This document shows positions 39,905 to 60,681 of a stretch of 64,000 bases of DNA, one piece after another. How positions within the stretch are numbered: the first letter of the stretch is position 1; every line of letters begins with the position of its first letter. This DNA is from Nitrosomonas communis (GTDB lineage: Bacteria > Pseudomonadota > Gammaproteobacteria > Burkholderiales > Nitrosomonadaceae), in NCBI RefSeq assembly GCF_900114745.1, contig NZ_FOUB01000003.1:62001-126000 (forward strand), given 5' to 3'. The notes beneath the pieces are model-generated. The model was not told the origin of the DNA and did not search any database. It saw only the letters and a program-made list of their open reading frames with translations. The translations under genes were made by a program, and so were the position numbers.

Positions 39905-40110
39905 TGGGTATGAAGAAATCGTAGCGAGCGCCCAAAGTGTGAGGCGGAAGGAACGCAGAGACGAGAAAACGAACAAAGTGAGTTTCGATAAAACGAGCCT
40001 TGCGAGTTTCGACAAAGCCACATAGCAAATAGATAGGCGAGGAGCCAGTACTGCCCAACACAGCGATTTCGGTGCGCAGTAGATTAATTTATAACCTCTG
40101 AGAATAAATC
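39905..40110. other. Non-coding spacer inside the ATPase operon
   Basis: 206 bases with no plausible gene in an operon that is otherwise tightly packed. It contains two close direct repeats, GTGAGTTTCGATAAA and GCGAGTTTCGACAAA, and a purine-rich run (GAGGCGGAAGGAACGCAGAG). N-ATPase operons usually carry two small membrane genes at this place; only one remains downstream. Confidence 0.5.
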
Positions 40111-41320: not shown

Positions 41321-41334
41321 GTACAGGTGTATGC

Positions 41335-42093
41335 GTGACTTTTGATTGGACAACCTTCATCCTCGAAATCATCAATTTTCTGGCACTTGTCTGGATCTTA
41401 AAGCATTTTTTGTATCAACCTATATTGGACATTATTGCTAGACGTCGCGCTGGTATCGAAAAGACGCTGACTGATGCGCAACAGATCAAAGCTGAGGCAG
41501 ATAAGCTTAAGCAACAACATGAAAAATTTCTGGCTGAATGGGAACAGGAAAAAGAAAGGGCTCAGGCACGCCTGATGGCTGAGCTGGCGGCAATGCGTGA
41601 AAATAAACTGGCTGAACTGAATGACAAAATCAATGAAGAAGCAGAACGGCGTAAGGTGCTGGATGAGCGCGCCAAACGTGAATTTGAACGCAGAATGGAA
41701 GAACAAGGCATTGCGCAAGGCATCGCATTTACTACTAAATTATTCTTTCGCCTTGCCTCACCTGAATTGGAAGCAGCTCTTTATGCATTGCTACTGGAAG
41801 ATTTACATGGTCTGAGCAAAGAAAATAAGCGCGTTATTACAGAAGCCACGGTAGTACCAGAGTTGCAGATAAAAATTCAAAGTGCATTTCCACTGGATGA
41901 GAACAAACAAAATGAACTAGCCCGTTATCTGTCAGATGTCGCTGGCAGAATGCTGCCAATCGAATTTCAGGTAAATTCTGATCTGATCGCAGGATTTCAG
42001 ATAGCAATAGGTTCGTGGATCTTGCATGCTAATTTACGCGATGAATTAAAATTTTTTAGTGGATCTTTGCAGCATGCTACCGCGGGAAGCTAG
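41335..42093 (+). CDS. atpF: Alternative ATPase subunit b (with delta-like C-terminus)
   Basis: A 252-residue peripheral stalk subunit: one N-terminal membrane helix ([20 protein letters not shown]), a long charged coiled coil (residues ~35-130), then a C-terminal part (~150-250) that resembles the delta subunit, for which the operon has no separate atpH. GTG start at 41335 with AGGTG upstream. Its end overlaps atpA. Confidence 0.88.
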
Positions 42094-43576: not shown

Positions 43577-44424
43577 GTAAACGACGTGAGGTAAAAGAGC
43601 GGCTAGCGACGCTGGATGAAATCAACAGCATCATGAAAACGATGAAAAACCTCGCTCTGCTTGAAATCCGTAAACTGGAAATGTTCCTCGACACGCAACG
43701 CCGTGTTACTGCCAGCATTGAAATGACGGCACGGGATTTTCTGTATTTTTATCCTCAGATCCCAGCTCAACCGGGCCATCAGCAACTATTAATTATCATC
43801 GGTTCAGAGCGCGGTTTTTGCGGTGATTATAATGAATCGTTAGTTGCATTCTTAAACAGCCAGCAACTGCAAAGAGAAACTTTGCTGGTAGTCGTGGGGC
43901 GCAAGCTTGAGAGCAAATTACTCGAGAACTTTCATATTGCTGCTTTTATTGAAAGTCACAGTGTGGCAGAAGAGGTGCCGATTACATTGCAGCGGCTAAT
44001 TGAGGTGCTGAACAGGATGCAGCAAGCCGCGCCAACAAAAATAGGGCAGATCAGCGTACTTTATTATGATGATGAAAGCGAGAAAATCAGGCTACGTCAA
44101 TTGTTACCTCTGTCATTACCTGAACCAGAATTGACTTATTCTCACCCTCCTCTGTTGCATCTGGAGCCGACACAATTTCTGACCAAATTGACTGATCAGT
44201 ATCTTTATGTGCTATTACATGAAGTATTTTATTCATCGTTTATGAGGGAAAATCATAAACGACTGGCCCACATGGATAGTGCTATCCAACATCTGGAGAA
44301 GGATACTGCAAAATTGCGGATGAGGGCTAACAGATTGCGTCAGGAGGAGATTATCAATGAAATTGAAATTATTTTGCTGAGTACAGAGGTATTATCGGCT
44401 AATGACAAGTCATTCCATTCCTAA
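43573..44424 (+). CDS. atpG: Alternative F1 ATPase gamma subunit
   Basis: A 283-residue rotor subunit. [26 protein letters not shown] at the start and [15 protein letters not shown] near the end form the coiled-coil shaft. The last residues (SFHS) and the stop codon come from a repeat element that inserted at the gene's end. A diverged copy of the 3' end lies 14.5 kb downstream, past the nuo operon. It overlaps atpA by four bases (ATGA). Confidence 0.9.
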
Positions 44425-44518
44425 ATCAAACCTGACTTTGTCGGCTTCTCCTTGCTGTATTATTTATATACTGTCTGCGGCTCGCCTTCGCGCCATGTTT
44501 GATTTAGAAAGGGAATTA
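44412..44518 (+). repeat. Dispersed palindromic element, copy 9 (MITE-like), at the atpG stop codon
   Basis: CATTCCATTCCTAAATCAAA on the left, GTTTGATTTAGAAAGGGAAT on the right. The TAA in CCTAAATC serves as the stop codon of atpG. It lies between the convergent ATPase and complex I operons. Confidence 0.9.
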
Positions 44519-44581
44519 CAATCGAAATCCATCTTGTAAGAGTCTTGCCGCTATGTCTCTTTTCTTGAAAAATTTCGTACT

Positions 44582-45985
44582 TCAAGGCAATTGAAGTGAT
44601 CCCAATAGCCACTGCGGGAAAATGCCAAGCCCGATAACCAAGGCAATAGAAATGATGATGACAATCAATGTGCCCTGTGTTGGCGGCATGGTGTTTAAGC
44701 TTGTTTCCTGCTCACTATAAAACTCCATCATTACTCGTAAGTAATAAAAAAAAGCGAGCGCTGTGTTGAGCACTGCCGCAATCGCCAACATCATATTGCC
44801 AGCCTCGACAGCTGCACCAAAGGCAAGTAGCTTGGCCATAAAGCCAGCTGTCGGCGGAAGGCCGGCTAGGGCTAGCAGGTAAATTCCCATGGCAAGTCCC
44901 AGCATCGGATAACGACGTCCCAGCCCGCGATAATCTGCCAAATTTTCACGATCCTGCTCACGGCGCGTTAACGCAACGATGACAGCAAAGGCGCCTAAGT
45001 TCATGATGGCTAGGGTAACAGCATAATAGATAGCGGCATCGCGGCCTTGTGCAGTACCCGCTGCCAGTGCTACCAGGATATAACCGAGATGGGCGATAGA
45101 TGAATAGGCGAGTAATCTTTTCAGATTCTGTTGATTTAGCGCTAACAGGTTACCTACTATCATACTGATTAACGCAAGTCCCCACAATAATGGAAGCAGC
45201 GCTTCCCATAGAGAAGGCAATTGTAGGCACAATAGCCGGATCAGAAACACTATAGTCGCCGCTTTACTGAAACTCGCGAACAGAGCTGTTATCGGTGAAG
45301 GGGCGGCCTGGTAGATGTCAGGCGCCCACATATGAAACGGCACCAAAGCTACTTTAAATCCTATCCCAACCAAGATCAAAGTAATGGCCACTGGCAGTAA
45401 GGATTCATCGCTAGCTACTGTGTTCAACTCAGTCAGATCCAAAGTGCCGCTGCTGGCATAGACCAGGGCAACGCCATACAGAAAAAATGCAGTAGCAAAA
45501 CCAGCAAGTACAGCATATTTTATGCCGCCCTCGATCGCACCGTACCTTGTTGGTTGCCACGCGATAAGGGCGTAAAGCGTTACAGCCAGGATTTCCAGGC
45601 CGAGAAAGGCACTGATAAGATTGTTTGAGCTTACGAGCAGGGCCATTCCTAATGTGGCAAAGAGAATCAGGCTCAAGTATTCCTCTTGGAGCTCATTGCG
45701 GATGGGGACATGGCCGAAAGATAGCATGACGATGGCTGCGGCACCCAACATAAAAAATAGAGTAAACACGCGACTTAAATCGTCGATTACTAACATGCTA
45801 CCTACTGCACCAGGTACTTGCCACAGTAAGGTAGCGGCAGCACCCAGCAGCAGAAAAACCAGCGTGGCAGACGATAATAATCGGATCGAAACACGCTTTG
45901 GCCAGATACCCAGCATCAATATGACTAGGCCGCCAGTTGTTGGCAATAGGTAAGGGATGAGATTGATCAGCTCAGCGAAGGGCAT
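44582..45985 (-). CDS. nuoN: NADH-quinone oxidoreductase subunit N
   Basis: A 467-residue antiporter-like membrane subunit of complex I, the last gene of the operon. About fourteen helices, with FSFSK-type lysine segment (FASFSKAATIVFLIRLL) and the first essential Glu in GLEILAVTLYALIAW. I chose ATG 45985, which overlaps nuoM by 14 bases; the frame is open to 46021. Confidence 0.94.
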   Translation of the reverse strand: MPFAELINLIPYLLPTTGGLVILMLGIWPKRVSIRLLSSATLVFLLLGAAATLLWQVPGAVGSMLVIDDLSRVFTLFFMLGAAAIVMLSFGHVPIRNELQEEYLSLILFATLGMALLVSSNNLISAFLGLEILAVTLYALIAWQPTRYGAIEGGIKYAVLAGFATAFFLYGVALVYASSGTLDLTELNTVASDESLLPVAITLILVGIGFKVALVPFHMWAPDIYQAAPSPITALFASFSKAATIVFLIRLLCLQLPSLWEALLPLLWGLALISMIVGNLLALNQQNLKRLLAYSSIAHLGYILVALAAGTAQGRDAAIYYAVTLAIMNLGAFAVIVALTRREQDRENLADYRGLGRRYPMLGLAMGIYLLALAGLPPTAGFMAKLLAFGAAVEAGNMMLAIAAVLNTALAFFYYLRVMMEFYSEQETSLNTMPPTQGTLIVIIISIALVIGLGIFPQWLLGSLQLP

Positions 45986-47471
45986 CAATCGATCCAGTAG
46001 GCGCGGAGCTTTTCGATTCAATAATAGCGGTCACGGGGATTTGCAAGCTGTCAAGGAAAGGCGCAGGGTAAAGACCCAGCCACAATACTACTAATGCCAA
46101 AAGTCCCAGTGGCACAGCTTCGCGGCGGTTGAGGTCGGTCCATGCTCGTTTAATGGTGATCTCTCCCAGCACAGCGCGCTGGTACATCCACAGCAGGTAA
46201 ACGACCCCAGCAATAATACCCAGGGCTCCCGCTACGGCAAGCCCGGCTGAGACCTGGAACACGCCGGCAAGAACCAGGAATTCACCGATGAAATTGGCCA
46301 GCCCAGGCATACCCATCGCAGAGAGTGTAAAGAGTAACAACAGGGAAGCCAGACGGGGGATTGGCGATAATAGTCCCCCCAGCTGCGCTAGTAAGCGGGT
46401 GCCGCAACGTTCTTCCAACATACCGACCATGGCAAACATCGCGCCTGTTGACACCCCGTGCGCCAGCATCAAGATTACAGCACCGTTCAAACCTTCCTGA
46501 TTCCAGGCATAGATGCCAAACACCACAAAACCCAGGTGGCTAATAGAAGAATAGGCAATGAGTCGTTTCATATCCTCCTGGACCAAGGCCAACAAGGCAC
46601 CATAGAGGATACCGATCACCCCCAGAGTCATACCAATGGGCGCAAAGTCTGTGGAGGCTTCAGGAAACAGCGGCAGGCAGAAGCGCAACAAGCCATAAGC
46701 GCCGGTCTTCAATAATAGACCTGCGAGGAAGATGCTGCCCGCTGTGGGCGCTTCGGTGTGAGCGTCAGGTAGCCAGCTGTGTATTGGAAACAGCGGAATC
46801 TTAACAGCGAAAGCCACAAAAAAGCCAAGCATTAGCCACATCTCGCTGTTGTCTGGCAGATTGACCTGTAACAATTCGAAGTAATCGAACGTGTAAATAC
46901 CGGTTTGCTCGCCATGAGTAAAGTACAACCCCAGAATGGCTATCAACATCAGCAGTGAACCGGTAACTGTGAAAAGGAAAAATTTGTAGGCGGCATAGAG
47001 CCTACGTTCGTGACCCCACACTCCCACCAGAAAATACATCGGCACTAACATCAGTTCCCAGAATACATAGAACAGCACCAGGTCGAGCGCCAGGAAGACC
47101 CCCATAATTCCTGCCTGGGTAGCGAGGAGGAGGGCGGCAAAAGCGGGCCAATTGCGTTGTATTGCATTCCATGAGACCAGCACGACCACAGGGCCTAGTA
47201 GCGCGGTCAGCAGTACCAGCAGCAGGCTGATACCATCCATACCCAATAAAAATTGAATCCCCATGGCGGGGACCCAGGGAGCACGCACGATGTAAAAATA
47301 ACCCTGTTCGTTGGGGATTGCGTTCCACCACAAACCAAGTGCGATCAACAGCTCTGTGCTGGTAATCGCTAGCGCGGCCCAACGTGCAAAGGCTGTTTTA
47401 TTGCGCCCTATTACGCCGATCCACAGTCCGCCCAACACGGGCAGAAATATCAGCACGCTCAACCAGTCCAT
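45972..47471 (-). CDS. nuoM: NADH-quinone oxidoreductase subunit M
   Basis: A 499-residue Mrp-antiporter-like proton pump subunit. WELMLVPMYFLVGVWG, with the essential glutamate near residue 140, FPIHSWLPDAHTEAPT and RLIAYSSISHLGFV are diagnostic. It ends 10 bases from nuoL. Confidence 0.96.
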   Translation of the reverse strand: MDWLSVLIFLPVLGGLWIGVIGRNKTAFARWAALAITSTELLIALGLWWNAIPNEQGYFYIVRAPWVPAMGIQFLLGMDGISLLLVLLTALLGPVVVLVSWNAIQRNWPAFAALLLATQAGIMGVFLALDLVLFYVFWELMLVPMYFLVGVWGHERRLYAAYKFFLFTVTGSLLMLIAILGLYFTHGEQTGIYTFDYFELLQVNLPDNSEMWLMLGFFVAFAVKIPLFPIHSWLPDAHTEAPTAGSIFLAGLLLKTGAYGLLRFCLPLFPEASTDFAPIGMTLGVIGILYGALLALVQEDMKRLIAYSSISHLGFVVFGIYAWNQEGLNGAVILMLAHGVSTGAMFAMVGMLEERCGTRLLAQLGGLLSPIPRLASLLLLFTLSAMGMPGLANFIGEFLVLAGVFQVSAGLAVAGALGIIAGVVYLLWMYQRAVLGEITIKRAWTDLNRREAVPLGLLALVVLWLGLYPAPFLDSLQIPVTAIIESKSSAPTGSIDALR

Positions 47472-47481
47472 AACACTCTCC

Positions 47482-49497
47482 TCACCATAACCAATATCCC
47501 AGGAAGAACACGGCCCCTGTACTTATCACCAGGGCATAGCGGCTCAGAAAACCGTTTTGAGTAATGCTCAGAAGCGTATAGCCGAAGCGCAGCGCCGCCA
47601 CTAAGCGAGTGATGCCGGCTTCTAACGCGTTGTACTCCACGCCTTTGCGGCAGAAGGTGGCAAAGGCCAAGAAGCCACGCGTTATTCTGGTTAGTGCCCC
47701 CTCAATCAGAAGAGTTTCCACAGCACCTGATACTCCCTTGGCAAGAGCGCGGTAGGGGCGTACCACGATATAGATGATGCCCTCCTTACTTTCAGCAGCG
47801 TGCAGTATCCTGGCCAGGGCATGGTAGGGACGTACCAGCGTGGCATGGTAGAAAGCGTCAAAACCCCAGCCGTTGCGCAAAAAAATTGCCAAGGGAAGTG
47901 ATTGATACGCTTGCTCGCGCTGGATCAACCACAAGGCCAAGCTAAAACCCGCTAGTGGCAATAACGCAGTGATGAGTTGGAGATTGTAAGTAATGGTTAG
48001 CGGAGGGAAGGTCGCTACACCAAGCTCATTTTCCAGCCATAGACTCCAAAGGTGCGGTCCGGGCCAGCCTTCCGGTAACTCAATGAAGCCGCTAACGATG
48101 CTGAGCAACGCCAAAATGAGTAACGGCAACGACATGAAATAGGGAAGGGATATCGTCGAGGTTCTCTGCCCTGAACCTTGGAAGACGAGTAAATAGACGC
48201 GAAAGATGTAGATTGCAGTCAGCAGGCCGCCGAAGGCAGCGAAGGCCCATAATAGCGGGCCAGCCGGTGTCGACCAGGTGGTGACAAGAATGGCGTCTTT
48301 ACTATAAAATCCGGCGGTGACGAAAGGCACGCCAGCCAATGAAGCTGCACCAATCAGGAATGTCCAGCGCGCTATGGATGGATGGTTACCTATCCTGCCT
48401 AAACTATTTATATCGTGTTCATCCCCGCTGGCTTGGATTACCGCACCTGCAGACAGAAATAGTAAAGCCTTAAAAAAGGCATGAGTGGTCAGATGAAACA
48501 GTGCTAATGCATAGGCTCCACAGCCTAGTGCCAGAAACATGTAACCTATTTGGCTGATGGTGGAGTAGGCTAACACTTTTTTGAAATCTGTTTGTGCTAA
48601 CGCAGCGCTAGCGCCATAGACAATAGTTAGCGCACCGATGGCTGCCACGAGCCATTGTGTCTGAGGTGCCAACTCAAACAAGGGATGAGTGCGCGCGATC
48701 AAATAAACGCCTGCCGTGACCATGGTGGCGGCGTGCATCAATGCAGAAACCGGACTGGGGCCAGCCATGGCATCAGGCAGCCAAACTTGTAGTGGTAATT
48801 GTGCTGACTTACCTAGAGCGCCGCCCAGGATTAACAGCGTCGCCAGAGTGGCCAATGTTGATCCCTTTTCCCACTGGGCGGTAGCATTTGTAAGCAGCGC
48901 GGAGAGAGATAATTCATGAAACTGGCTGAATAGGAGAAAGATGCCGAGTGCCAGTGCCGTATCGCCAATGCGAGTGACAATAAAGGCCTTGCGTCCAGCA
49001 TCGCTTGGCAGTGACTCTCGATACCAGAAACCAATCAGGGCATAGGAGCATAGCCCAACCAGCTCCCAACCCAGATAAAGAAGCAACAGATTATCAGCTA
49101 GCACCAGCAACAGCATACCGGCTAAAAACAGGTTGAGAAAAAAATAATAACGACGCTGATCGGTTTCTTCAGCCATAAAGGGTACCGAGTAAAAATGGAC
49201 CAATAAGCCCACACCGCTAACTACGCTCACCATGACCAAAGCAAGGCGATCAAGCGTGAAACCAAACATCGGCTGCCATTCGCCCACTACAACCCAGGTA
49301 TAAAGAGTTTGCTGCAATGGTTGGCTGGCGGCTCCGGTTAGCCAGGCTAACAGCACTACCAGAAAAGCAATGGCTGCAGCGCAACAAGCAACTATGGCGA
49401 GGTGTTCCCGTCGCAGCAGGTTCCCCAGGAAGAGGATGATGAGCGATCCAAGCAAAGGCGCGCAGGGAATCAGCCATAGCCACTGCCACTGACTCAC
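47482..49497 (-). CDS. nuoL: NADH-quinone oxidoreductase subunit L
   Basis: A 671-residue subunit with the antiporter core (LLLLYLGWELVGLCSYALIGFWY; QLPLQVWLPDAMAGPSPVSALMHAATMV; KVLAYSTISQIGYM) and the long C-terminal lateral helix that clamps the membrane arm, recognisable as the extended region after residue ~530. It overlaps nuoK by four bases. Confidence 0.96.
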   Translation of the reverse strand: MSQWQWLWLIPCAPLLGSLIILFLGNLLRREHLAIVACCAAAIAFLVVLLAWLTGAASQPLQQTLYTWVVVGEWQPMFGFTLDRLALVMVSVVSGVGLLVHFYSVPFMAEETDQRRYYFFLNLFLAGMLLLVLADNLLLLYLGWELVGLCSYALIGFWYRESLPSDAGRKAFIVTRIGDTALALGIFLLFSQFHELSLSALLTNATAQWEKGSTLATLATLLILGGALGKSAQLPLQVWLPDAMAGPSPVSALMHAATMVTAGVYLIARTHPLFELAPQTQWLVAAIGALTIVYGASAALAQTDFKKVLAYSTISQIGYMFLALGCGAYALALFHLTTHAFFKALLFLSAGAVIQASGDEHDINSLGRIGNHPSIARWTFLIGAASLAGVPFVTAGFYSKDAILVTTWSTPAGPLLWAFAAFGGLLTAIYIFRVYLLVFQGSGQRTSTISLPYFMSLPLLILALLSIVSGFIELPEGWPGPHLWSLWLENELGVATFPPLTITYNLQLITALLPLAGFSLALWLIQREQAYQSLPLAIFLRNGWGFDAFYHATLVRPYHALARILHAAESKEGIIYIVVRPYRALAKGVSGAVETLLIEGALTRITRGFLAFATFCRKGVEYNALEAGITRLVAALRFGYTLLSITQNGFLSRYALVISTGAVFFLGYWLW

Positions 49498-49817
49498 GAT
49501 GAACTCCTTTCAGTTTCATCTTTCAGGTGGGTGAGCGTTTCCACCCGCACTGCCTTGTAGTGATCATAGGCTAGCCATACTAGAATCAGTGCCACCACAA
49601 CTTCTGCAGCTGTTACCGTCATCAGCATGATAACCAGTACCTGACCATCGGCATTGCCCCAGTATTGGCCCGCTGCTATCGCCGTTAGGGCAACGCCATT
49701 GAGCATCACCTCTAATCCTATCAATATGAACAGCAGCTCCCGCCGTAATAACACCACGGCAAGACCCAGTACGAATAATAGAGCGGCGATAGCCAGGCTG
49801 TGACTGAGCGGGATCAT
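49494..49817 (-). CDS. nuoK: NADH-quinone oxidoreductase subunit K
   Basis: A 107-residue subunit of three helices. ELLFILIGLEVMLNGV carries the conserved Glu near residue 36, and a second membrane Glu stands in TAAEVVVALILV. Overlaps both nuoJ and nuoL by four bases. Confidence 0.96.
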   Translation of the reverse strand: MIPLSHSLAIAALLFVLGLAVVLLRRELLFILIGLEVMLNGVALTAIAAGQYWGNADGQVLVIMLMTVTAAEVVVALILVWLAYDHYKAVRVETLTHLKDETERSSS

Positions 49818-50305
49818 CGTTTTCCCTTTCGACTGAGATAGAGGGCCGCTACCAATGCCGCCAGCAATAAAATCGCAGCAGCTTCAACCACCACCAAGTA
49901 TGGGCCAAATAGCGCATTCCCCACCGCCGTGGGTCCGATCACCATGATGTTGTCTGCCATATCTAATGACGATCTGCTAAGTAACAGCAAGAGTACCAAC
50001 CACAGAAGCAGGGCCAATAATGCCATCCCGCCCCAGTTGGCAGGGAGTAACAGTGGCAGATTCCGTTCGGTACGTAAATTCATCACCATCATCATGAACA
50101 AAAACAATACCAGGATCGCACCAGCGTATAACATAACCTGGAATGCTGCCAGCAGGGGGGCGCCGAGCAAGAAGAACAACAATGCTAAAGCCAGTAGTGA
50201 CACGATCAGGTACAGGGCGGCATGGACCGGATGACGCACGACCAGGATCGCGCCTGCGGCAATCACTGCAATAACGGAAGAAAGATAAAAAATGAACTCA
50301 TACAT
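49814..50305 (-). CDS. nuoJ: NADH-quinone oxidoreductase subunit J
   Basis: A 163-residue subunit of five helices: HPVHAALYLIVSLLALALLFFLLGAPLLA and QVMLYAGAILVLFLFMMMVMNL are conserved. It is separated from nuoI by 210 bases that hold a repeat copy, so the second half of the operon may depend on readthrough or a new promoter. Confidence 0.96.
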   Translation of the reverse strand: MYEFIFYLSSVIAVIAAGAILVVRHPVHAALYLIVSLLALALLFFLLGAPLLAAFQVMLYAGAILVLFLFMMMVMNLRTERNLPLLLPANWGGMALLALLLWLVLLLLLSRSSLDMADNIMVIGPTAVGNALFGPYLVVVEAAAILLLAALVAALYLSRKGKR

Positions 50306-50385
50306 GAGCTGACCCTGTTGGACTGGTTGTGCTGTTCATCATGGTTGTTTTCCTTATCTTTGTGTGCTGCCCATCGATGCTTCCT

Positions 50386-50492
50386 TATTCCATTTCTAAA
50401 TCAAAACTGATTTTGTCAGCTTCACCTTGCTATATTATGGATACTCTCTGCGGCTCGCCTTCGCGTCATTTTTGATTTGAAAATGGAATTAC
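50386..50492 (+). repeat. Dispersed palindromic element, copy 10 (MITE-like), inside the nuo operon
   Basis: TTATTCCATTTCTAAATC on the left and GATTTGAAAATGGAATTA on the right, core GCTATATTATGGATACTCTC. It interrupts the operon between nuoI and nuoJ, the only large gap in thirteen genes. Confidence 0.92.
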
Positions 50493-50515
50493 ATTAGCCA
50501 GTTATGCTCCATTTA

Positions 50516-51055
50516 CTAGGGCAGGTTGGTATCATGATCTACCGGTGGTGTATCGCCGATACCTTCGCCGATGGCCTTGCCGGAGATCGCAACGCCGGCA
50601 TGGCGGTAAAAATTGTAACCAGGGTGCTTGCCCTGACCTTCAATCAGCAGTTGCTCTTTTTCGTACACCAGCTCATCATGGCTTCGCTCGCACATCTCGA
50701 AATCTGGCGTAAGCTGTATCGCCAGTGTTGGGCAGGCTTCCTCACAAAAGCCACAAAAGATGCAGCGGCTGAAATCGATGCGGAATGTTTCCGGATAACG
50801 CCGGCCGTCGTCTCGCTGCGTAGCTTGCAAGTGGATGCAGTCCACTGGGCATACCGCCGAGCATAAATAACAGGCCACACAACGTTCTTCGCCATCAGGA
50901 TCGCGGGTAAGCACGATGCGTCCACGCCAGCGTCCGGGCAAAGGGCGCTTAATCTCCGGGTATGACACAGTCTCACGCTTTGCCCAGGCATGACGCAAGG
51001 TCGTCCACAGCGAATGCCATAGCCTGACAAGTAGAGTTGGAGTCTGTTTATTCAT
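50516..51055 (-). CDS. nuoI: NADH-quinone oxidoreductase subunit I
   Basis: A 179-residue ferredoxin-like subunit with two complete [4Fe-4S] motifs: [15 protein letters not shown] and [12 protein letters not shown]. These are clusters N6a and N6b on the way to the quinone. An amphipathic N-terminal helix anchors it. It lies about 20 bases after nuoH. Confidence 0.96.
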
Positions 51056-51076
51056 TTGTTTATCTATCTACCTTAG

Positions 51077-52039
51077 TTAACCTTTCATCCAGAACAACCC
51101 TAGCACAGCCGTAATCAGCAGATTAAACAACGCGGCAGGCAGCATCAACTTCCAGCCGAGATCCATCAATTGATCATAGCGCAGCCGGGGTAGGCTGGTG
51201 CGCAACCAAAAGAATAGCAATATCAGTGCCAGTGTCTTAAGGGCAAACCACACTACCCCAGGTAGCCAGGGTCCATGCCAGCCACCCAGAAACAGTACCG
51301 TCACGAGTGCTGCGATGAGCAGTACCCCCAAGTATTCACCTAGATAGAAGAAAGCGAATTTGATCCCGCCATATTCGGTGTTGTAACCCGCAGCGAGCTC
51401 GTTTTCCGCCTCAGGAAGATCAAAGGGCAGGCGGTTGGTTTCAGCGATGCCGCTTACCAGAAAAATGATGAAACCCAGCGGCTGGAGCACGATAAAAGGC
51501 AGCTCCTGGGCAGCAACAATCTCTCTCAGACTGAAAGAACCGCTTAACATCACTACCCCCACCAACGCGAGTCCCATCGGTAATTCGTAACTGATCATCT
51601 GCGCGGCCGAGCGTAGACCACCGAGCAGCGAATATTTGCTGTTAGAAGCCCAGCCGCCCAGCATAATGCCGTAAACCCGCAACGAAGAGAGAGCCAGTAC
51701 GTAAAGCAATGCGATGTTGAGATCGGCTAGCCATCCATCCTCACTGACTGGCACCACGGCAAAGCTAAGCAACGCGGTCATTGGGACGATGATCGGCGCA
51801 ACGGTATAGACCATGCGATCAGCAAAGGGAGGTACGAAGGCTTCCTTGCTTACCAGCTTCAGGATATCGGCTACAGGCTGCAACAAACCGAAAGGACCAG
51901 CGCGATTGGGACCAAGGCGATCCTGCAGCAGCGCAAGAATGCGCCGCTCACCATAACTCATGATGGCTCCGATAAGCAACAACCCCAGCAGCACCAATCC
52001 TATACTTGCCAGGGTAAGTAGCCACTGAGTCAAGCTCAT
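51077..52039 (-). CDS. nuoH: NADH-quinone oxidoreductase subunit H
   Basis: A 320-residue membrane subunit at the quinone site. RRILALLQDRLGPNRAGPFGLLQPVADILKL and ETNRLPFDLPEAENELAAGYNTEYGG are diagnostic, the latter with the glutamates of the E-channel. Overlaps nuoG by four bases. Confidence 0.97.
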   Translation of the reverse strand: MSLTQWLLTLASIGLVLLGLLLIGAIMSYGERRILALLQDRLGPNRAGPFGLLQPVADILKLVSKEAFVPPFADRMVYTVAPIIVPMTALLSFAVVPVSEDGWLADLNIALLYVLALSSLRVYGIMLGGWASNSKYSLLGGLRSAAQMISYELPMGLALVGVVMLSGSFSLREIVAAQELPFIVLQPLGFIIFLVSGIAETNRLPFDLPEAENELAAGYNTEYGGIKFAFFYLGEYLGVLLIAALVTVLFLGGWHGPWLPGVVWFALKTLALILLFFWLRTSLPRLRYDQLMDLGWKLMLPAALFNLLITAVLGLFWMKG

Positions 52040-54363
52040 GATATATGCTCCAGCTCAAGTAGATCACCGTGGCCAACCCCTAATTGAGTCAGCGTCACTC
52101 TGGAAAGGGCAATCGTACCGGCGGCCACATCGTTATTAAGCTGCACTGGCAGTACTACGGTACCGGCCGGGCCGCGCAATCTGACCTGCTTCTTATCCTC
52201 GATTCCTTCCTTAAAGGCTGCTGTCGGATGAATAAGTGCGGCGGCGGCTGGAGCAAGCTCCATCAAAGCCGGGGCATAGCTAGCAAGCGGATCATCTCCA
52301 TACCAGCTCGCCAGTGCAACTTGCCAATGGCCAGGATGGGCTGAGGAAGCTGGACCGATGGTGGTACCGGTCTGCATGGTTAGAGGGGGGGCGGATAGAG
52401 CCGATCCCAGTGTGCCAGGAAGGGGCGCCTGGTAGCCAGGGAAGAGATTACTCAGCACTGCTGCCGCATCTGGTAAAGCGAGCTCGAGGCAATGAGCCAG
52501 GTCAGCGAGGACCTCTACTGTGTTGGGCAGGGGTTCTGTCCGCTGAAAGACAGGAGCAAAGCCTTGGGCACGGCCTTCATAATTGACAAAAGTGCCACCC
52601 CGCTCGGCCCATGCTGCTACTGGCAGCAAGATATCCGCTGCCTCGGCAGTGGCGGTAGCGACGCAATCCAATACGATAAGCGTGCTGAGGTGTCGGCGTG
52701 CCGCACGCCAGCGAGTACCGAGGCGTGCATCACCAAGGGGATCATTGCCTATCACGATCAAAGTCTGGATCTGACCCGATTCGATTGCCTCTAACATTGC
52801 AGTCGTGCTAGTTGTCGGGGTAAGTAATATCGTTCCATAAGTGTTGGCTCCAGGCAAAGCATAGGCGAGTTTGGCACGAGATCCCAAGGCAGTAGCCAGT
52901 TGTACCATAGCGGCAATCTCTGGTACAGCCATAGTCTCGCTCACACCTATTAATACCGGTCGTTGGGCCGCTGTCAGGTAGACTGCAATATCAGCTAGCT
53001 CCTTCTCATGCTTATTGGAGGGAGCAGGAGCAGTAGGGGCAGTAGGGGCAGCAGTCGCCTGCTCATGCAAACGCAAAAGATGTGCGCTTATCTCTTGAGG
53101 CGGAACTGTCAAGGTCGTGGCTGCGAAACGAGCCAGCAGAGAGGGTCCGCTGTGCAGAATGGCCAGTTTGGCACCAGCCCGATAAGCCTGCCGCAAGGCT
53201 AAGTCCATCATGGGCGCATGCGCGGTCAGGTCGCCGACCACCAGCGCTGCGTCAGCTTGTTCTATTTCGGCCAGGGATGGCGCCCCACCGCTGCTTTGGA
53301 GAGCTGCGACGGCAGCAACAGTTGCTGTCTCGATCTGGGGGTCGCTAAAGGTAGCGAACCTCCCACTTAGCTTATTCAGTAAGGTCTGTAACATAGCATT
53401 GCTTTCCAGATCTTCTCGTGTTGAGCCAAGGCCGCTCGTTTTATCCCTGGCAGCTTTGATCTGTTCTGCAGCGGCAGCAAGCGCTTCACGATAGCTCACT
53501 TTTTCGTCTCTTACGCGGGGGGTCAGCGGCCGGTCAATATGTTCGCTGTATTGATGACCGTAACGGCCGCGATCACAAATGAACCAGCGGTTGAGCTCGG
53601 GGTGAAAGCGATTGCGCATCCGGCGTAGTGTGCCGTCCCGTGCTCCAGGCAGGGTGTTGCAGCCGACACTGCAGTGGGGGCAAATGGAAGGGGCCGTTTC
53701 CAGATCCCAGACCCGCGCAAAATGCTGCCGGAACACGGCATCGGTGAAGACGCCGGTAGGGCAGATCTCAACCAGGTTACCGGCAAACGGGCTTGTCAGC
53801 GGACCATCCTGGAAACGACCGAAATAGACCTCGTTGCGTAGACGCATTGAGCCAAGGTCATCGCCTAGCGCATAATCCTGGTAAAAGCGAGTGCAGCGAT
53901 AACAGGTAATGCATCGGTTCATTTCATGGTGAACCAATGGGCCTAGATACTGGTTGGTGAAGGTGCGCTTGCGGCCGCGATAGCGGCGATAAGGAGGGCC
54001 GCAGGCAACCGTCATTTCCTGCAAGTGACACTCTCCTCCTTCGTCGCAGACCGGACAATCGTGCGGGTGATTGATCATCAAAAATTCGATTACCCTCTGC
54101 CGTACCTGTCGTGCCGCAGCTGCAGAAACTGAAACGTTGAGCCCATCTCTAGCAAATTCGAGACAAGACATGACTACCCGGGGACTTTGGGTCGGATCCA
54201 CCGACGCAACCTCGACAGCGCACAGCCGGCAGGCACCAAGACTGCCGAGGGCAGCATGGTAACAGAAATAGGGGATCTCTATATTCGCTGCTAACGCGGC
54301 CTTGAGAATGTTGTCGTTTTCCTGGAAAGGGATATCATGACCGTCGATACGCATCGTTCCCAT
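52036..54363 (-). CDS. nuoG: NADH-quinone oxidoreductase subunit G
   Basis: A 775-residue iron-sulfur subunit. A [2Fe-2S] ferredoxin domain (residues 1-80; YFCYHAALGSLGACRLCAVEV), a His/Cys-ligated cluster in CPVCDEGGECHLQEMT and a third in CITCYRCTRFYQD lead to a molybdopterin-like fold (residues ~220-770) without a visible cofactor site. An extra cluster motif, CPHCSVGCNTLPG, near residue 230 matches the N7 site. Alanine-rich stretches in the second half differ from NuoG of neighbours. Confidence 0.94.
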   Translation of the reverse strand: MGTMRIDGHDIPFQENDNILKAALAANIEIPYFCYHAALGSLGACRLCAVEVASVDPTQSPRVVMSCLEFARDGLNVSVSAAAARQVRQRVIEFLMINHPHDCPVCDEGGECHLQEMTVACGPPYRRYRGRKRTFTNQYLGPLVHHEMNRCITCYRCTRFYQDYALGDDLGSMRLRNEVYFGRFQDGPLTSPFAGNLVEICPTGVFTDAVFRQHFARVWDLETAPSICPHCSVGCNTLPGARDGTLRRMRNRFHPELNRWFICDRGRYGHQYSEHIDRPLTPRVRDEKVSYREALAAAAEQIKAARDKTSGLGSTREDLESNAMLQTLLNKLSGRFATFSDPQIETATVAAVAALQSSGGAPSLAEIEQADAALVVGDLTAHAPMMDLALRQAYRAGAKLAILHSGPSLLARFAATTLTVPPQEISAHLLRLHEQATAAPTAPTAPAPSNKHEKELADIAVYLTAAQRPVLIGVSETMAVPEIAAMVQLATALGSRAKLAYALPGANTYGTILLTPTTSTTAMLEAIESGQIQTLIVIGNDPLGDARLGTRWRAARRHLSTLIVLDCVATATAEAADILLPVAAWAERGGTFVNYEGRAQGFAPVFQRTEPLPNTVEVLADLAHCLELALPDAAAVLSNLFPGYQAPLPGTLGSALSAPPLTMQTGTTIGPASSAHPGHWQVALASWYGDDPLASYAPALMELAPAAAALIHPTAAFKEGIEDKKQVRLRGPAGTVVLPVQLNNDVAAGTIALSRVTLTQLGVGHGDLLELEHIS

Positions 54364-54365
54364 GA

Positions 54366-55646
54366 TTAGGCTCCGCTCTTGTTGACTGCGTCAAACGGGC
54401 AGCAGCCTGTGTCGATATGACTTTCGTAATGGTCGTGAAAGCATTGCAGGCTGCTGATAAGAGGTATCATCGCACCAGGGGCGAAGGCACAAAAGGATTG
54501 AAGGGCGATGATACCGCTTAGTTCTTCTAGCAAGACTAAGTCTTCTGCCCGCCCCTCTCCGCTAGCAATAGTTGCTAGGATTTGCGCTAAGTAAGGGATG
54601 CCATCACGGCAGGGAGTACAGAAACCACAGGATTCACGGGCGAAGAAGCGCATCAGGTTCAGCGTTACCTGAACTGGGCAGGTGGTATCATCTAGAACGA
54701 TGATACTGGCGGTCCCGAGCCGCGATCCTGCCTTGGCGACGGGGTCGAAATCCATTGGCACATCAAGGTGTTCAGGCAACAAGAAGGCTGTCGAAGCTCC
54801 GCCAGGTATGAAGCCGAGCAGGGTACGTCCCTCGGCTAGGCCGCCGGCATGTTCAAAGATCAATTCTCGTGCTGGCGTACCACAGGGTAGTTCGAATAGG
54901 CCGGGCTGGTGCACCATGCCGCTGACACAGAATAGCTTGGGTCCACAACCGCTGTTGATTCCCAGCGCACGAAACCAGTCCGCACCATTAAGCAGAATAT
55001 GCGGTACATTGACCAGGGTCTCAACGTTATTGGTGGTGGTAGGATGCTGCCATAAACCTTTGACGCTGGGTCGTGGCATCTTGTGACGCGGATTGGGACG
55101 CAGACCTTCGATGGCATTCAGCATAGCTGTTTCTTCGCCGCAGATGTAGCGTCCACCACTGATGTGCACCTCCATCTGCAGATCGAAACCACTGCCGCAG
55201 ATATTAGATCCCACCAGTCCAGCCATCTCAGCCTCTTTGATGGCTCGGTGTAAACCATGCCCCCCCTTGCCGTACTCTCCCCGGACAAAAATTACCGCCT
55301 TTTCAGCTTGCAGCGCATAGGCGGAGACGATGACCGCCTCGATGATCTGATGGGGACCGCCATAGAGCAGGTAGCGATCTTTAAAGGTACCCGGCTCTGA
55401 TTCGTCTATATTACAAACGAGATAACGGGGCCGCGGTGCATCTGCATCCCGTAGGCGCCACTTCAGGCCACAGGAAAAACCCGCACCGCCGCGCCCACGC
55501 AGATTGGCGGCTTCTACTATTTCAATGATTTCCTCAGGCTTACGAGCAAAGGCGGCATCCAAACTTCGGTAGCCACCTACAGATCGGTAGGCTTCCAAGT
55601 CTAGGGGAGCGTTGGCTTCAATGTGTCGGGTCAGTACCGCTTCCAT
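54366..55646 (-). CDS. nuoF: NADH-quinone oxidoreductase subunit F
   Basis: A 426-residue FMN- and NADH-binding subunit. GRGGAGFSCGLKW binds FMN, the NADH loop lies in ICGEETAMLNAIEG, and ESCGFCTPCRDG plus the cysteine in LQSFCAFAPGA form cluster N3. ATG 55646 follows GAGGTGGA; a longer frame to 55700 lies inside nuoE. It is directly after nuoE. Confidence 0.95.
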   Translation of the reverse strand: MEAVLTRHIEANAPLDLEAYRSVGGYRSLDAAFARKPEEIIEIVEAANLRGRGGAGFSCGLKWRLRDADAPRPRYLVCNIDESEPGTFKDRYLLYGGPHQIIEAVIVSAYALQAEKAVIFVRGEYGKGGHGLHRAIKEAEMAGLVGSNICGSGFDLQMEVHISGGRYICGEETAMLNAIEGLRPNPRHKMPRPSVKGLWQHPTTTNNVETLVNVPHILLNGADWFRALGINSGCGPKLFCVSGMVHQPGLFELPCGTPARELIFEHAGGLAEGRTLLGFIPGGASTAFLLPEHLDVPMDFDPVAKAGSRLGTASIIVLDDTTCPVQVTLNLMRFFARESCGFCTPCRDGIPYLAQILATIASGEGRAEDLVLLEELSGIIALQSFCAFAPGAMIPLISSLQCFHDHYESHIDTGCCPFDAVNKSGA

Positions 55647-55650
55647 ACGC

Positions 55651-56136
55651 TTAATCCACCTCTTGCAGTCGGCGCAGCAAAACTTGCAGAGCGGCTTCAT
55701 TCAATGGTCCTACTGCTTCACCATCTAAAAGTGCCGCGGGTGCCTGATCGCATAAGCCCAGGCAAATGCTGGGCAAGATACTGAAGGCCCCATCTGGAGA
55801 AATCTTGCCTAATGATACGCCACTGTATTGTTCGGCTGCTTGCAGTAATCGATCCGCTCCCTGTAGACTGCAACATAGACTGTCGCACACCCGTAGAACA
55901 TGCCGGCCTGCTGGATGACGATAGATCAAGCTATAGAAAGTAGCGAGCTCCTCAACTTCGGTAGTTGACAGACCGGTAACCTGTGCGACTTCTTCAACCC
56001 CCCTGTCATCAAGGTGACCACGTTCAGCCTGTAAGGATTGCATCAGAGGGACTACCGCTGCACGGCGTTCTGGGTGAGTGAGAGGAAGTTGGGCCAGATG
56101 CTTTTGCAGCGTTTGTCGGTCGAGCTTGTCATTCAT
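55651..56136 (-). CDS. nuoE: NADH-quinone oxidoreductase subunit E
   Basis: A 161-residue thioredoxin-fold [2Fe-2S] subunit. Ligands stand in VCDSLCCSLQGA and SICLGLCDQAPA (cluster N1a). VEELATFYSLIYRHP is conserved. It is followed at once by nuoF. Confidence 0.95.
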   Translation of the reverse strand: MNDKLDRQTLQKHLAQLPLTHPERRAAVVPLMQSLQAERGHLDDRGVEEVAQVTGLSTTEVEELATFYSLIYRHPAGRHVLRVCDSLCCSLQGADRLLQAAEQYSGVSLGKISPDGAFSILPSICLGLCDQAPAALLDGEAVGPLNEAALQVLLRRLQEVD

Positions 56137-56146
56137 TTTTTTCTCC

Positions 56147-57859
56147 TTACCTATCGACGTCTGCCAGGACGTAGTCGATGGAACCCAGGATGGGAATCAG
56201 ATCTCCCACAAGGTGGCCGTGAGCTAATAACTTCAGAGCCTGGATATGCGGAAAAGATGGCGTGCGTATCCGTAAACGGTAGGGGTGTTCCGAACCGTCG
56301 CTGACGACAAAGTAGCCGTTCATCCCCTTGGGTGCCTCGGTCACAAAGAGGCTTTCCCCGGCTGGGAAGCTCATGCCTCGGCCCACCGCGATGAAATGGT
56401 GAATTAGCGTTTCGATGTCTTGCAATGTCGCCTCCTTGCGTGGGAAGGCATAACGCGCTTCTGCAGACAGAACCGGGCCAGGTGGCATGTTTTGCATAGC
56501 TTGTTCGACGATGCGTAGACTTTGACGAATTTCTTCCAGACGCACTTCAGTTCTGGCTAGGGCATCTCCTTCGGTAGCGGTGGGGATCTCAAACTCGTAG
56601 TGTTGGTAACCGCTGTAAGGACGTTTTTTGCGTAGATCCCATGCCGGACCACAGGCTCGTAAATTGGGTCCGCTTACCCCCCAATCGATAGCTTCTGCTG
56701 CGGACAATACTCCGATACCACGGGTGCGGGCGCGAAATACCGGGTTATCCGCCAATAAGGCCTGGTAATCATCAATAGCTGCAGGCATGCGTTTTAAGAA
56801 ACCTTGCAGTGCTTCGTACCAGCCCTCGGGCAGGTCGAGGGCCACGCCACCGATGCGGAAGAAATTCGGATGCATGCGCCCGCCGGTGATGAGTTCCATC
56901 ACATCGAACAGATATTCACGCTCTCGAAAGGCGTAAAAAGGCGGCGCCAATGCTCCTGTATCATGCGCATAGCTGGCTATCCAGACCAGATGACTGGCAA
57001 CGCGGAAAAGTTCGCAAAGCATTACCCGAATGACCTCTGCACGTGGTGGTACGGTAATTCCAGCGAGTTGTTCCACTGCAAGCACATAAGGCAACTCGTT
57101 TTGAATGCCAGCGAGATAATCGATGCGGTCGGTGTAAGGGATATAGCTGTGATAAGTTTGGCGTTCGGCCATTTTTTCCGCGCCGCGATGATGAAAACCA
57201 ATATCTGGATTCACATCGCGTATCTCCTCGCCCAGCAGCCGCACGACTAAACGCAAAAGACCGTGCGTACCGGGATGGGTAGGGCCGATATTGAGGAGCA
57301 TTTCTTCATCGCTCATACCGGGTTCGCGGTAATCCTCGGCACGGTAACTTTCCATGATAGCGCGATAGCGTGCTTCGGGCAGTTGGTAGGGTGGCATCTC
57401 GGTGGCACGATTGGGATGCGTCTTGCGCAAAGGATGCCCTTCCCAGTATTCGGGCATCAGGATACGCTTCAGATTAGGATGACCGTCTATGTGGATACCG
57501 AACATGTCATAAAGCTCGCGTTCATACCAATTGGCGGCTGGCCATGCGGTGCAGACGCTGGGTAATACCGGAGCTTCCTCAGGTAGGCTTACTTTGAGAC
57601 GCAGATCAGTATTACCGGAGAGCGAGAGCAAATGATAGAACACAGTCAACCCGCCGCCTCGTTTAGCCTCGTCGATGGCAGACAGGTCAAAGAGCATTTC
57701 AAAGTGGGGCTCTGCCTTATGTTTGAGAAAGATAATTGCTTCGATGAGCCGATCAGCAGGAACTGACAGGGTATCGATTTTGTCGCGAGGTAATTCAACA
57801 GGAACAGCGTTAAAGAGCGTCTGCAGTTGTGTAAGCAACGTTCTGTCCTTATCTGCCAT
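56147..57859 (-). CDS. nuoCD: Fused NADH-quinone oxidoreductase subunit C/D
   Basis: A single 570-residue chain combines NuoC (about residues 1-185; WYERELYDMFGIHIDGHPNLKRILMPEYWEGHPLRK) and NuoD (about 200-570; NIGPTHPGTHGLLRLV, GFHHRGAEKMAE, and the C-terminal GSIDYVLADVDR). The fused gene is the rule in E. coli-like complex I of Gammaproteobacteria, whereas Betaproteobacteria as a rule carry separate nuoC and nuoD. It supports lateral acquisition of the operon. Confidence 0.96.
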   Translation of the reverse strand: MADKDRTLLTQLQTLFNAVPVELPRDKIDTLSVPADRLIEAIIFLKHKAEPHFEMLFDLSAIDEAKRGGGLTVFYHLLSLSGNTDLRLKVSLPEEAPVLPSVCTAWPAANWYERELYDMFGIHIDGHPNLKRILMPEYWEGHPLRKTHPNRATEMPPYQLPEARYRAIMESYRAEDYREPGMSDEEMLLNIGPTHPGTHGLLRLVVRLLGEEIRDVNPDIGFHHRGAEKMAERQTYHSYIPYTDRIDYLAGIQNELPYVLAVEQLAGITVPPRAEVIRVMLCELFRVASHLVWIASYAHDTGALAPPFYAFREREYLFDVMELITGGRMHPNFFRIGGVALDLPEGWYEALQGFLKRMPAAIDDYQALLADNPVFRARTRGIGVLSAAEAIDWGVSGPNLRACGPAWDLRKKRPYSGYQHYEFEIPTATEGDALARTEVRLEEIRQSLRIVEQAMQNMPPGPVLSAEARYAFPRKEATLQDIETLIHHFIAVGRGMSFPAGESLFVTEAPKGMNGYFVVSDGSEHPYRLRIRTPSFPHIQALKLLAHGHLVGDLIPILGSIDYVLADVDR

Positions 57860-57862
57860 TTA

Positions 57863-58360
57863 TTATTCCTCCACCCTGCGAGCAAGTGGCCGATGCTTGG
57901 TACCAATTGACTCTTGCAATATTACCAGCCCCTGCAACAATGCTTCGGGACGTGGTGGGCAGCCGGGAACATAGACATCCACCGGCAGGATCTGGTCTAT
58001 ACCTTGCACAACGCTATAGATATCGTACATCCCCCCTGAATTGGCACAGGAGCCCATGGAAATCACCCACTTAGGTTCGAGCATCTGGTGGTAGAGACGC
58101 AGAATCATCGGCGCCATCTTGATGAATACCGTTCCCGAGATGATCAACAGATCCGCCTGACGCGGTGAACCACGCATAATTTCGGCACCAAAGCGAGCGA
58201 TATCATGGCGTGGCGTAAACGCCGTCATCATCTCGACGAAGCAGCAAGAGAGGCCAAAATTAAATGGCCAGAGCGAATACTTGCGCCCCCAAGACACTGC
58301 TTCTTCCAGTCTGCTGAAAACAGCTGTTAGAGGTCCTTGGTTGATCTGTCTGGACTCCAT
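57863..58360 (-). CDS. nuoB: NADH-quinone oxidoreductase subunit B
   Basis: A 165-residue subunit that binds cluster N2, the last before the quinone. The tandem cysteines are in [10 protein letters not shown], with the others in [12 protein letters not shown] and [15 protein letters not shown] 58360 has AAAGGGGGG upstream; the gene overlaps the 3' end of nuoA by about 34 bases. Confidence 0.96.
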
Positions 58361-58713
58361 GACAACCCCCCTTTGCACCATTCATAAACCAAACCAAGCA
58401 TCAGAATCAATATAAAAACAATGGCGCCAATAACACCTGGCAAACTTAATTCCCAATAGGCGACTGCCCAGACAAACAGAAACATCGCTTCAATATCAAA
58501 TATCAAAAAGGAGACAGCGATCACATAGAAGCGCACTGGAACCTGAGGGCGTGCATCGCCGGTAGGAGGGATACCGCATTCAAAGGGTTGTTCCTTATCC
58601 CACTGTGGCCGATAACCACCAAGCCAGCGTGAGAGACTCAGCAAACAAAATAATGCGACCAATACGAGTAGGGCAAATAGACCAATAACGGCAGCAGATT
58701 CCGAGTCTTGCAT
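58327..58713 (-). CDS. nuoA: NADH-quinone oxidoreductase subunit A
   Basis: A 128-residue subunit of three helices, the first gene of the operon. [42 protein letters not shown] holds the conserved loop cysteine and the acidic residues of helix 2. Length agrees with the E. coli-like type. Confidence 0.95.
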
Positions 58714-58987
58714 TTGGTCCCTCCTTCAACTTAAGGCCAGTTATTATGATTGAGTCGTTCTGTCCTTTATCCTTTCAAAATTGAAACTCATTAGCAAAGC
58801 GCTATTTAGGGAAATAGCTGGCGCGGAAAAAAATCCAACTCAGTTTGATCTTGTTACAAGCTAATGCTAAGGGATAACACATAGCCAGGCAATAATGCAA
58901 TAGCATACATAATCCTGGAAGCCGCCTTTAGGGTAATTTATCTTTGATGCAGGAGACTCTCAATCTCACCACCTGCCTGAGGATTAG
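58714..58987. other. Promoter region of the nuo operon
   Basis: About 275 bases between nuoA and the atpG remnant on the other strand. It must carry the nuo promoter on the minus strand, but no clear -35/-10 pair or operator is visible. No repeat copy is found here. Confidence 0.45.
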
Positions 58988-59122
58988 TCACAGAAAAAGC
59001 CGGCAGATGAAAAGGAATGCAGCAAGATTGTGTTTATGTATCATAAATTGCGCCAGGAGATCATCGATGAAAATGAAATTATTCTGCTCAATGCAGAAGT
59101 ATTACCTGATAATGATAAATGA
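58988..59122 (+). pseudogene. Remnant of a second atpG (gamma subunit) 3' end
   Basis: An open frame that starts after a TAG and ends at TGA 59122 gives DEKECSKIVFMYHKLRQEII, then DENEIILLNAEVLPDNDK. It lines up with the end of the intact gamma subunit ([38 protein letters not shown]), with the same strand and the same register; the DNA matches too. Only the last ~40 codons remain and no start or upstream part is present. This copy ends NDK-stop, probably the ancestral end that the intact gene lost to the repeat element. Confidence 0.75.
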
Positions 59123-59155
59123 CACATGAAATCTGTTTTAAGGGGTACTAACACT

Positions 59156-60520
59156 ATGTCCATGCTCTCAATCAATCCCATTACCGGGCAAACGATACAA
59201 TTTTTTCCTATTTGGCAGGCCGATACTATTGACACTGTCTTGCGTGAGGTGGAATCAGCACAAGTAGGCTGGGCCTTGCTGAGTGTTGAGCAGCGAGCTG
59301 TTTATATGCGTCAGCTGGCAGGAGTTTTTCGTCAGCGCCGTGATGATTACGCCCATCTGATTACCGATGAGATGGGCAAATTACTGAAGGAAGCCAGAGC
59401 CGAGATCGATAAATGTGCTTGGGGATGTGACTATTTCGCTGAGCATGCCAGTACTTATCTGGCAGATGAAATTATTGTGTCTGATGCCAGCCGCAGTCTT
59501 GTCGTTTATCAGCCCTTGGGGACCTTATTGTGCATTATGCCGTGGAATTTCCCTTTCTGGCAATTGATACGGGCGGCTGCTCCTGCAATGATGGCGGGTA
59601 ATACCGTAGTACTGAAACATGCTTCCAATGTGCCGCGTTGTGCGCTTGCATTGGAAGAAGCCTTTCGTGAAGCAGGATTTCCTGCGAATACTTTCCGCAC
59701 ATTGATGATCACGGCAAACCAGGCTGAAACGGTCATTGCCGATAAACGCATTGCTGCGGTAACCTTGACCGGCAGCAATGCTGCCGGACGCAAAGTTGCT
59801 ACCATTGCGGGTCAACATTTGAAAAAATGTGTCCTGGAACTGGGTGGATCAGATCCTTTCATCGTACTCGATGATGCCGATCTTGAATTTACGGCAGCAC
59901 AAGCGGTGACTGCCCGTTTCCAAAACATGGGGCAAAGTTGTATTGCTGCCAAGCGCTTTATTCTCGTGGATGCCATTGCCGATACATTCGTACAACGCTT
60001 TAAAATGTTAACAAGTGAATTACGCAGCGGTGATCCCAAGCTGGAAACGACTACTCTTGCGCCAATGGCGCGTGCCGATTTGCGGGACATTCTGCATGCG
60101 CAAGTTGAGCGTAGTCTTGCCATGGGCGCTACCCTCGTGACTGGCGGCAAATTGGTTGGTACCGAAGGTGCTTATTACGCACCAACTATTCTGGATCAGG
60201 TACGTCCTGGTATACCCGCCTTTGATGAAGAATTGTTTGGCCCGGTAGCGGTCATGGTACGGGTTAAAAACGCTGAGGAAGCGATACGCCTGGCTAATCA
60301 ATCGCCATTTGGTCTGGGTGGAAGTGTCTGGACACGTGATGTGACACGAGGTGAGGCTATCGCTCGCCAAATCCAGGCTGGCAGCGTTTTCGTCAATGGT
60401 GTCGTTAAAAGTGACCCGCGTTTACCATTCGGCGGTATAAAAGAGTCGGGGTTTGGGCGGGAATTATCCTATCATGGCATTCGTGAGTTCGTGAATATTA
60501 AAACGGTGTGGGTTGGATAG
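59156..60520 (+). CDS. NAD(P)-dependent aldehyde dehydrogenase (succinate-semialdehyde type)
   Basis: A 454-residue ALDH-superfamily enzyme. The cofactor region reads IMPWNFPFWQLIRAAAPAMMAGNTVVLKHASN, the catalytic glutamate is in LELGGSDPFIVLDDAD and the nucleophile in NMGQSCIAAKRF (Cys near residue 263). Its start (INPITGQTI) and overall pattern resemble the Sad/YneI group, so succinate semialdehyde is a likely substrate. ATG 59156 follows AAGGGG; an ATG at 59126 is in frame. It lies just after the atpG remnant. Confidence 0.88.
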   Translation: MSMLSINPITGQTIQFFPIWQADTIDTVLREVESAQVGWALLSVEQRAVYMRQLAGVFRQRRDDYAHLITDEMGKLLKEARAEIDKCAWGCDYFAEHASTYLADEIIVSDASRSLVVYQPLGTLLCIMPWNFPFWQLIRAAAPAMMAGNTVVLKHASNVPRCALALEEAFREAGFPANTFRTLMITANQAETVIADKRIAAVTLTGSNAAGRKVATIAGQHLKKCVLELGGSDPFIVLDDADLEFTAAQAVTARFQNMGQSCIAAKRFILVDAIADTFVQRFKMLTSELRSGDPKLETTTLAPMARADLRDILHAQVERSLAMGATLVTGGKLVGTEGAYYAPTILDQVRPGIPAFDEELFGPVAVMVRVKNAEEAIRLANQSPFGLGGSVWTRDVTRGEAIARQIQAGSVFVNGVVKSDPRLPFGGIKESGFGRELSYHGIREFVNIKTVWVG

Positions 60521-60573: not shown

Positions 60574-60681
60574 TAATTCCATTTCTAAATCAAAAATGAC
60601 TTTGTCGGCTTCACCTTGCCGTATTATTTATACTGTCTGCGGCTCGCATTCGCGTCATTTTTGATTTGGAAATGGAATTAC
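60574..60681 (+). repeat. Dispersed palindromic element, copy 11 (MITE-like), at the galU stop codon
   Basis: TAATTCCATTTCTAAATC and GATTTGGAAATGGAATTA, TA at both ends, core GCCGTATTATTTATACTGTC. The last TTA is the galU stop codon read from the other strand. It lies between convergent genes. Confidence 0.92.

Follow-up and report, generated by a model that had tools for sequence, protein, structure and literature searches.

A decayed atpG end upstream of an aldehyde dehydrogenase gene in Nitrosomonas communis, most probably one copy of a gene junction duplicated on insertion of a second complex I operon

A remnant of the atpG 3' end residing upstream of an aldehyde dehydrogenase (ALDH) gene in the 4.42 Mb genome of Nitrosomonas communis most probably represents the right-hand member of a pair of short direct repeats, which would have arisen when a second complex I operon, here named nuo2, entered the genome where atpG meets the ALDH gene (estimated probability of roughly 0.85). 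The remnant, referred to as the stub, lies within the window, i.e., the whole stretch of 64,000 nucleotides analyzed in this study. The initial annotation of the window had described an atpG end on the same strand as the intact gene and beyond the oppositely oriented nuo operon, and its position was confirmed, the distance between the stub and the intact atpG being approximately 14.6 kb.

From left to right, the locus comprises genes for a histidine kinase, a response regulator, and a GGDEF/EAL protein (35389–37848, plus strand; identified by family scan and comparison with relatives), the latter serving as the left-end marker of the locus in related genomes. It is followed by the N-type ATPase operon atpD, C, Q, (R), B, E, F, A, G (38097–44424, plus strand), in which atpQ was assigned via relatives and gene order and atpR is putative. 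The 3' end of the intact atpG gene, encoding the gamma subunit (43573–44424, plus strand), represents the duplicated stretch on the left-hand side. The insert, nuo2 (44582–58713, minus strand), extends from nuoA to nuoN and features a fused nuoCD gene; its 13 open reading frames were read as nuo genes, three of them being scanned with family models (nuoA and nuoN by Pfam, nuoCD by NCBIfam), and the other genes were named from their order. To the right of nuo2, the stub (58940–59122, plus strand; detected by tblastn, blastn, profile, and shuffles) overlaps the right copy of the atpG–ALDH spacer including the ALDH start (59117–59160, plus strand), followed by the ALDH gene itself (59156–60520, plus strand; Pfam Aldedh, E 2.6e-135). 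The corresponding open reading frame begins at 59126, but relatives align from approximately residue 11 onwards, so that the ATG at 59156 is favored. The top NCBIfam models for this gene were succinate-semialdehyde dehydrogenases, all of those shown being below their cut-offs.

In N-type ATPase operons, atpG is the last gene. Part of a published account describes atpD and atpC as the first genes, followed by atpQ, with the gamma gene inside the operon (PMC5376962). The operon in the window matches the N-type order, with atpD, atpC, and atpQ in front and atpG at the end. However, none of the subunits D, C, B, E, F, A, and G reached the cut-off of its NCBIfam 'alternate F1F0' model (for gamma, 67.8 compared to a cut-off of 282), and only for D, C, F, and G did the alternate model rank first. 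Therefore, the label 'N-type' rests on gene order and kinship, and the Nitrosomonas N-type ATPase appears to be divergent.

The best-supported part of the stub spans positions 59009–59119, corresponding to 38 codons, the last 25 of which are the strongest, and is followed by a TGA codon at 59120–59122; the preceding part (58940–59008) is weak and was reached by the profile alignment alone. The initial annotation had assigned 58988–59122 to atpG. This range indeed is an open frame ending with TGA in the window and contains a real atpG end, but the atpG origin of its first seven codons is unclear. On the protein level, gamma residues 242–279 matched 59009–59119 with 55% amino acid identity over 38 residues (tblastn; E 1.4e-5 for a search against the 14.7-kb stretch 44425–59160). 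The alignment with atpG recommended in the initial annotation revealed 81% DNA identity (52/64) between 44345–44408 and 59055–59118 (blastn; E 2e-14 in a two-sequence comparison and 6e-14 in another run). Furthermore, a DNA profile built on the 3' ends of 20 intact Nitrosomonas atpG genes, including that of the window, matched 58940–59122 with an E of 2e-19. The stub achieved a profile score of 58.3 bits, compared to a maximum of 3.4 among 1000 dinucleotide-preserving shuffles, 70 of which gave any match. Searching the own genome with the gamma protein (E ≤ 10) yielded two matches, namely the intact gene and the stub (E 0.008 for this one genome). Approximately 38 of the 283 atpG codons remain in the stub. 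An NCBIfam scan of the 44-residue stub frame matched no family, the frame being too short to tell.

To place the locus among relatives, 85 Nitrosomonas genomes were searched. Matches to atpG covering at least residues 1–275 were found in 20 of them, with two in genome G075; the match in G080 carries an early stop and is located near a contig end, pieces at contig edges were detected in G015 and G074, and decayed pieces in G010. The fused nuoCD of nuo2 occurred in 12 of the 85 genomes, each featuring a second, more distant nuoD match, which represents another complex I beside nuo2. A close ALDH was present in 53 of the 85 genomes, including the window's own. Its surroundings were compared for 41 of the 52 other genomes, where G008 and G081 offered less than 3 kb upstream. 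An atpG end residing at most 3 kb upstream of the ALDH gene was detected at five of these 41 loci (G061, G018, G080, G051, and G011). In G061 and G018, the order corresponds to that of the window (atp, nuo2, stub, ALDH), and in G080, the EAL gene and atp operon are located on one contig and nuo2, the stub, and the ALDH gene on another. In G051, the EAL gene is followed by a remnant of the nuoN 3' end, the atpG stub, and the ALDH gene, and in G011 by a remnant of the atpD 5' end, a remnant of the atpG 3' end, and the ALDH gene; both genomes lack nuo2 and contain a single gamma match. The EAL gene adjoining the atpD 5' end in G011 is the same as in the window. In G065, which has neither an atpG match nor nuo2, the EAL gene immediately precedes the ALDH gene.

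A relative with atpG directly in front of the aldehyde dehydrogenase gene, as looked for on the suggestion of the initial annotation, was found in G011, which possesses a single junction and no nuo2; its atpG is the 3' end of an otherwise mostly deleted atp operon. The whole locus as assumed before the insertion (EAL, atp, ALDH) was not found among the compared genomes, G011 keeping its two ends alone. N-type atp operons are decayed or almost gone in G010 (L037, 14829–16888), G011 (L035), and G051 (L036), and the N-type ATPase has been lost repeatedly among Nitrosomonas members, as represented by these three genomes. In the compared stretch of G061 (L129, 10311–19608), the kinase and EAL genes left of atp are absent. 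The same stretch harbors a repeated gene pair, probably an insertion sequence, that is also located at 9173–9998 of the window.

The stub is a gene remnant, being homologous to the intact gene, truncated, and of a frame that is not conserved in relatives. A fortuitous match or a short functional peptide would agree with the open frame at 58988–59122 in the window, but this explanation is considered negligible. Chance is ruled out by the dinucleotide-preserving shuffles and by the window-wide scan with the spacer described below, and the stub is present in five more genomes. Inspection by eye revealed that its frame is broken in G018 and that a palindrome is inserted into it in G080, which rules out a functional peptide and indicates that the stub is decaying and is no gene. 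An assembly error is likewise ruled out, because the same structure, with the stub upstream of the ALDH gene, occurs in G061, a genome consisting of a single contig of 4,067,838 bases.

The second copy of the junction is located behind the intact atpG gene. It is interrupted by a palindromic repeat of 104 bp (44410–44513, read from the sequences), which contributes the final codons and the stop codon of atpG and is followed by a spacer copy with a ghost ALDH start (44514–44557, plus strand; ghost start at 44553–44555). Compared to the atpG–ALDH spacer of G011, this left ghost is identical at 33 of 44 positions in the window, 32 in G061, 27 in G018, and 30 in G080, and none of 20,000 shuffles was as good for any of the four genomes. 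For the G051 spacer, the values were 29, 26, 23, and 28, respectively; the comparison of G018 with G051 over 52 nt was matched by 5 of 20,000 shuffles. As a control, 16 atpG 3' flanks from other Nitrosomonas species, scored as the best of 13 offsets, achieved only 15–20 against G011 and 15–21 against G051. When the G011 spacer was moved stepwise over the two strands of the whole window, the top fit was obtained at 44514 (33/44), and the best unrelated places reached 26 (minus strand) and 24 (plus strand). The real right-hand spacer, having lost one base, scored 25 of 44 without gaps. In G061, the left and right spacers share 26 of 44 positions (1 of 100,000 shuffles as good), and a blastn comparison of G018 and G011 recovered the atpG end and spacer in one 95-nt piece (E 2.6e-21).

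The left ghost and the G011 spacer can be aligned without gaps, the distance to the ATG being identical in both; in G080 and G018, the ATG itself has been lost from the ghost. The match stops approximately 8 nt past the ghost ALDH start; beyond this point, five of six comparisons showed no similarity to ALDH codons, and the sixth was slightly high (5/60 shuffles). Accordingly, the left copy reaches the ALDH start, and the right copy starts within approximately the last 40–65 codons of atpG. With the ghost spacer and ALDH start on the left and the stub and real ALDH gene on the right, nuo2 lies between direct copies of the junction. The arrangement, with direct copies flanking nuo2 on both sides, thus appears to be an insertion with target duplication. 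The initial annotation had noted a nuo block bracketed by two atpG ends and had offered a scar of insertion with duplication as one of two explanations; the former observation can be extended to the whole atpG–ALDH junction occurring twice, and the latter is supported by the ghost spacer and ALDH start behind the intact gene.

The same two junction copies would also result if the atp operon, or only its 3' part, had first been duplicated in tandem through the ALDH start and nuo2 had subsequently replaced almost the whole second copy except its last codons. Such a history is rather improbable, although the duplication is undatable by trees: it needs at least two events, and besides the stub, the stretch 44425–59160 holds only two atp matches, both at chance level (E 0.25 each).

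The palindromic repeat at the atpG end is present in the window and in G061, but absent at the same place in G018 and G080, which show the same arrangement; as the cause of the duplication, it is therefore ruled out. It belongs to a MITE-like family of approximately 105 bp, with copies at 37920–38045, 44410–44513, and 60576–60681 of the window. The family was searched genome-wide using another copy, whereas the copy at 44410 was recognised by eye; among 404 first-look candidates, 40 were scored, and all 40 were long matches (88–100%). The spacer of G018 also holds a copy.

A phylogeny of the 78-nt atpG core separated the six remnants and the four intact copies of the communis group from other Nitrosomonas sequences (94/93). 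This result bears on the other explanation offered in the initial annotation, according to which the stub derives from an independent, older N-type ATPase operon located beside the ALDH gene and lost, unrelated to the nuo2 insertion. Losses or decay of such operons or their parts in G010, G011, and G051 are in line with this origin, but it is very improbable and unnecessary: no other convincing atp piece was found between 44425 and 59160, the stub and the intact gene belong to one lineage, and the ghost spacer and ALDH start located downstream of the intact gene would be left unexplained. Inside the group of remnants and intact copies, the core tree gave no resolved order, and the six stubs did not group together. 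One clade of all six remnants (p-AU 0.33), though not favored, and a group of intact copies plus the G011 remnant (p-AU 0.36) were both compatible with the data, a core of 78 nt being too short to decide whether the stubs represent a single clade.

The EAL tree followed the order (G051,(G011,(G080,(G018, window)))), with G065 as the outgroup and 97/97 for the branch excluding G051, and the ALDH tree did not resolve G051, G011, and G065. In the nuoN tree, the G051 remnant was sister to the nuoN genes of the communis group (98/95), with G007 next (100/99). In the ALDH tree, G007 is placed beside G054 (100/100), the nuoN of which falls into another group. This conflict concerning G007 is expected if nuo2 moved between lineages, suggesting a transfer within the genus. 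The neighbor on the nuoA side of nuo2 is a different one in G007, G054, G077, G033, G056, and G063, which share it, but not in G010 and G026. In these six of the eight genomes outside the communis group, it is a divergently oriented gene for a conserved protein of approximately 145 amino acids (L178, 16934–17368 in G007), which we presume to be a CBS-domain protein. On the simplest account, nuo2 was transferred among Nitrosomonas lineages and became inserted a single time at the junction, before the divergence of G051; deletions in G051 and G011 would later have removed atp and nuo2, the stub being retained in both.

The two junction copies were observed, together with their order, occurrence in relatives, and decay; a single event, as well as its kind, is what we infer. 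Before this event, the locus would have consisted of the EAL gene, the N-type atp operon, and the ALDH gene. The insertion of nuo2 at the atpG–ALDH junction would have duplicated approximately 175–220 bp, comprising the atpG 3' end, the spacer with its ribosome-binding site, and the ALDH start. Subsequently, nuo2 would have resided between the ALDH start of one copy and the last 40–65 or so atpG codons of the other. In this way, atpG would stay whole on the left, and the ALDH gene would keep its own ribosome-binding site and start on the right; the useless stub and the useless ALDH start would decay. Neither neighbor was lost, presumably because the junction was doubled, a plain insertion being expected to cut atpG or the ALDH gene.

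The preferred kind of event is an illegitimate joining with template switching, in which copying would have continued beyond the junction, switched to nuo2 DNA of a related Nitrosomonas, and returned upstream of the departure point. Single-crossover integration of a circle in the junction would fit equally well, provided that such a circle existed. Template switching, circle integration, and a filled staggered break are indistinguishable from sequence, and neither a mobile-element gene nor junction microhomology hinting at the mechanism was identified. While the junction copies were still alike, recombination between them could have looped out the 14-kb nuo2 and restored the atpG–ALDH junction exactly, which is conceivable, but on the unlikely side. 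If nuo2 was reversible in this sense, G011 would stem from an excision, after which its atp operon disappeared, and the failure of the tree to set stubs apart from intact genes would be accounted for by gene conversion between the two junction copies.

Known insertions with target duplication include the integration of a circle by a single crossover and insertions with long target-site duplications; usual transposon target duplications are far shorter than the approximately 175–220 bp proposed here. The nuo2 locus resembles target-duplicating insertions in that the insert lies between direct copies and both neighboring genes are complete. In contrast, no integrase or transposase gene was recognised in the insert, which is a respiratory operon. 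According to two reports, illegitimate joining of foreign DNA to the chromosome is possible at one end, and duplications can arise through transformation (PMC3240628, PMC3784515). Homology-facilitated illegitimate recombination and transformation merodiploids are laboratory observations from other bacteria, and their relation to nuo2 may be one of likeness alone. In the surveyed literature (titles and beginnings of abstracts, most subscription papers being outside the scope), the arrangement was not described, and it is not mentioned in the Nm2 genome announcement (PMC4714114).

The locus represents an ordinary kind of event in an unusually readable example, a historical scar and no new system. 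Within the Nitrosomonas communis group, the acquisition of a second complex I can be tied to one site beside the N-type ATPase. Furthermore, the locus illustrates how an insert as large as an operon can enter between two genes with both neighbors unbroken, since the landing site doubles. Together, the ghost ALDH start and the atpG stub can serve as a marker for tracing the history of genes of energy metabolism in ammonia oxidisers.
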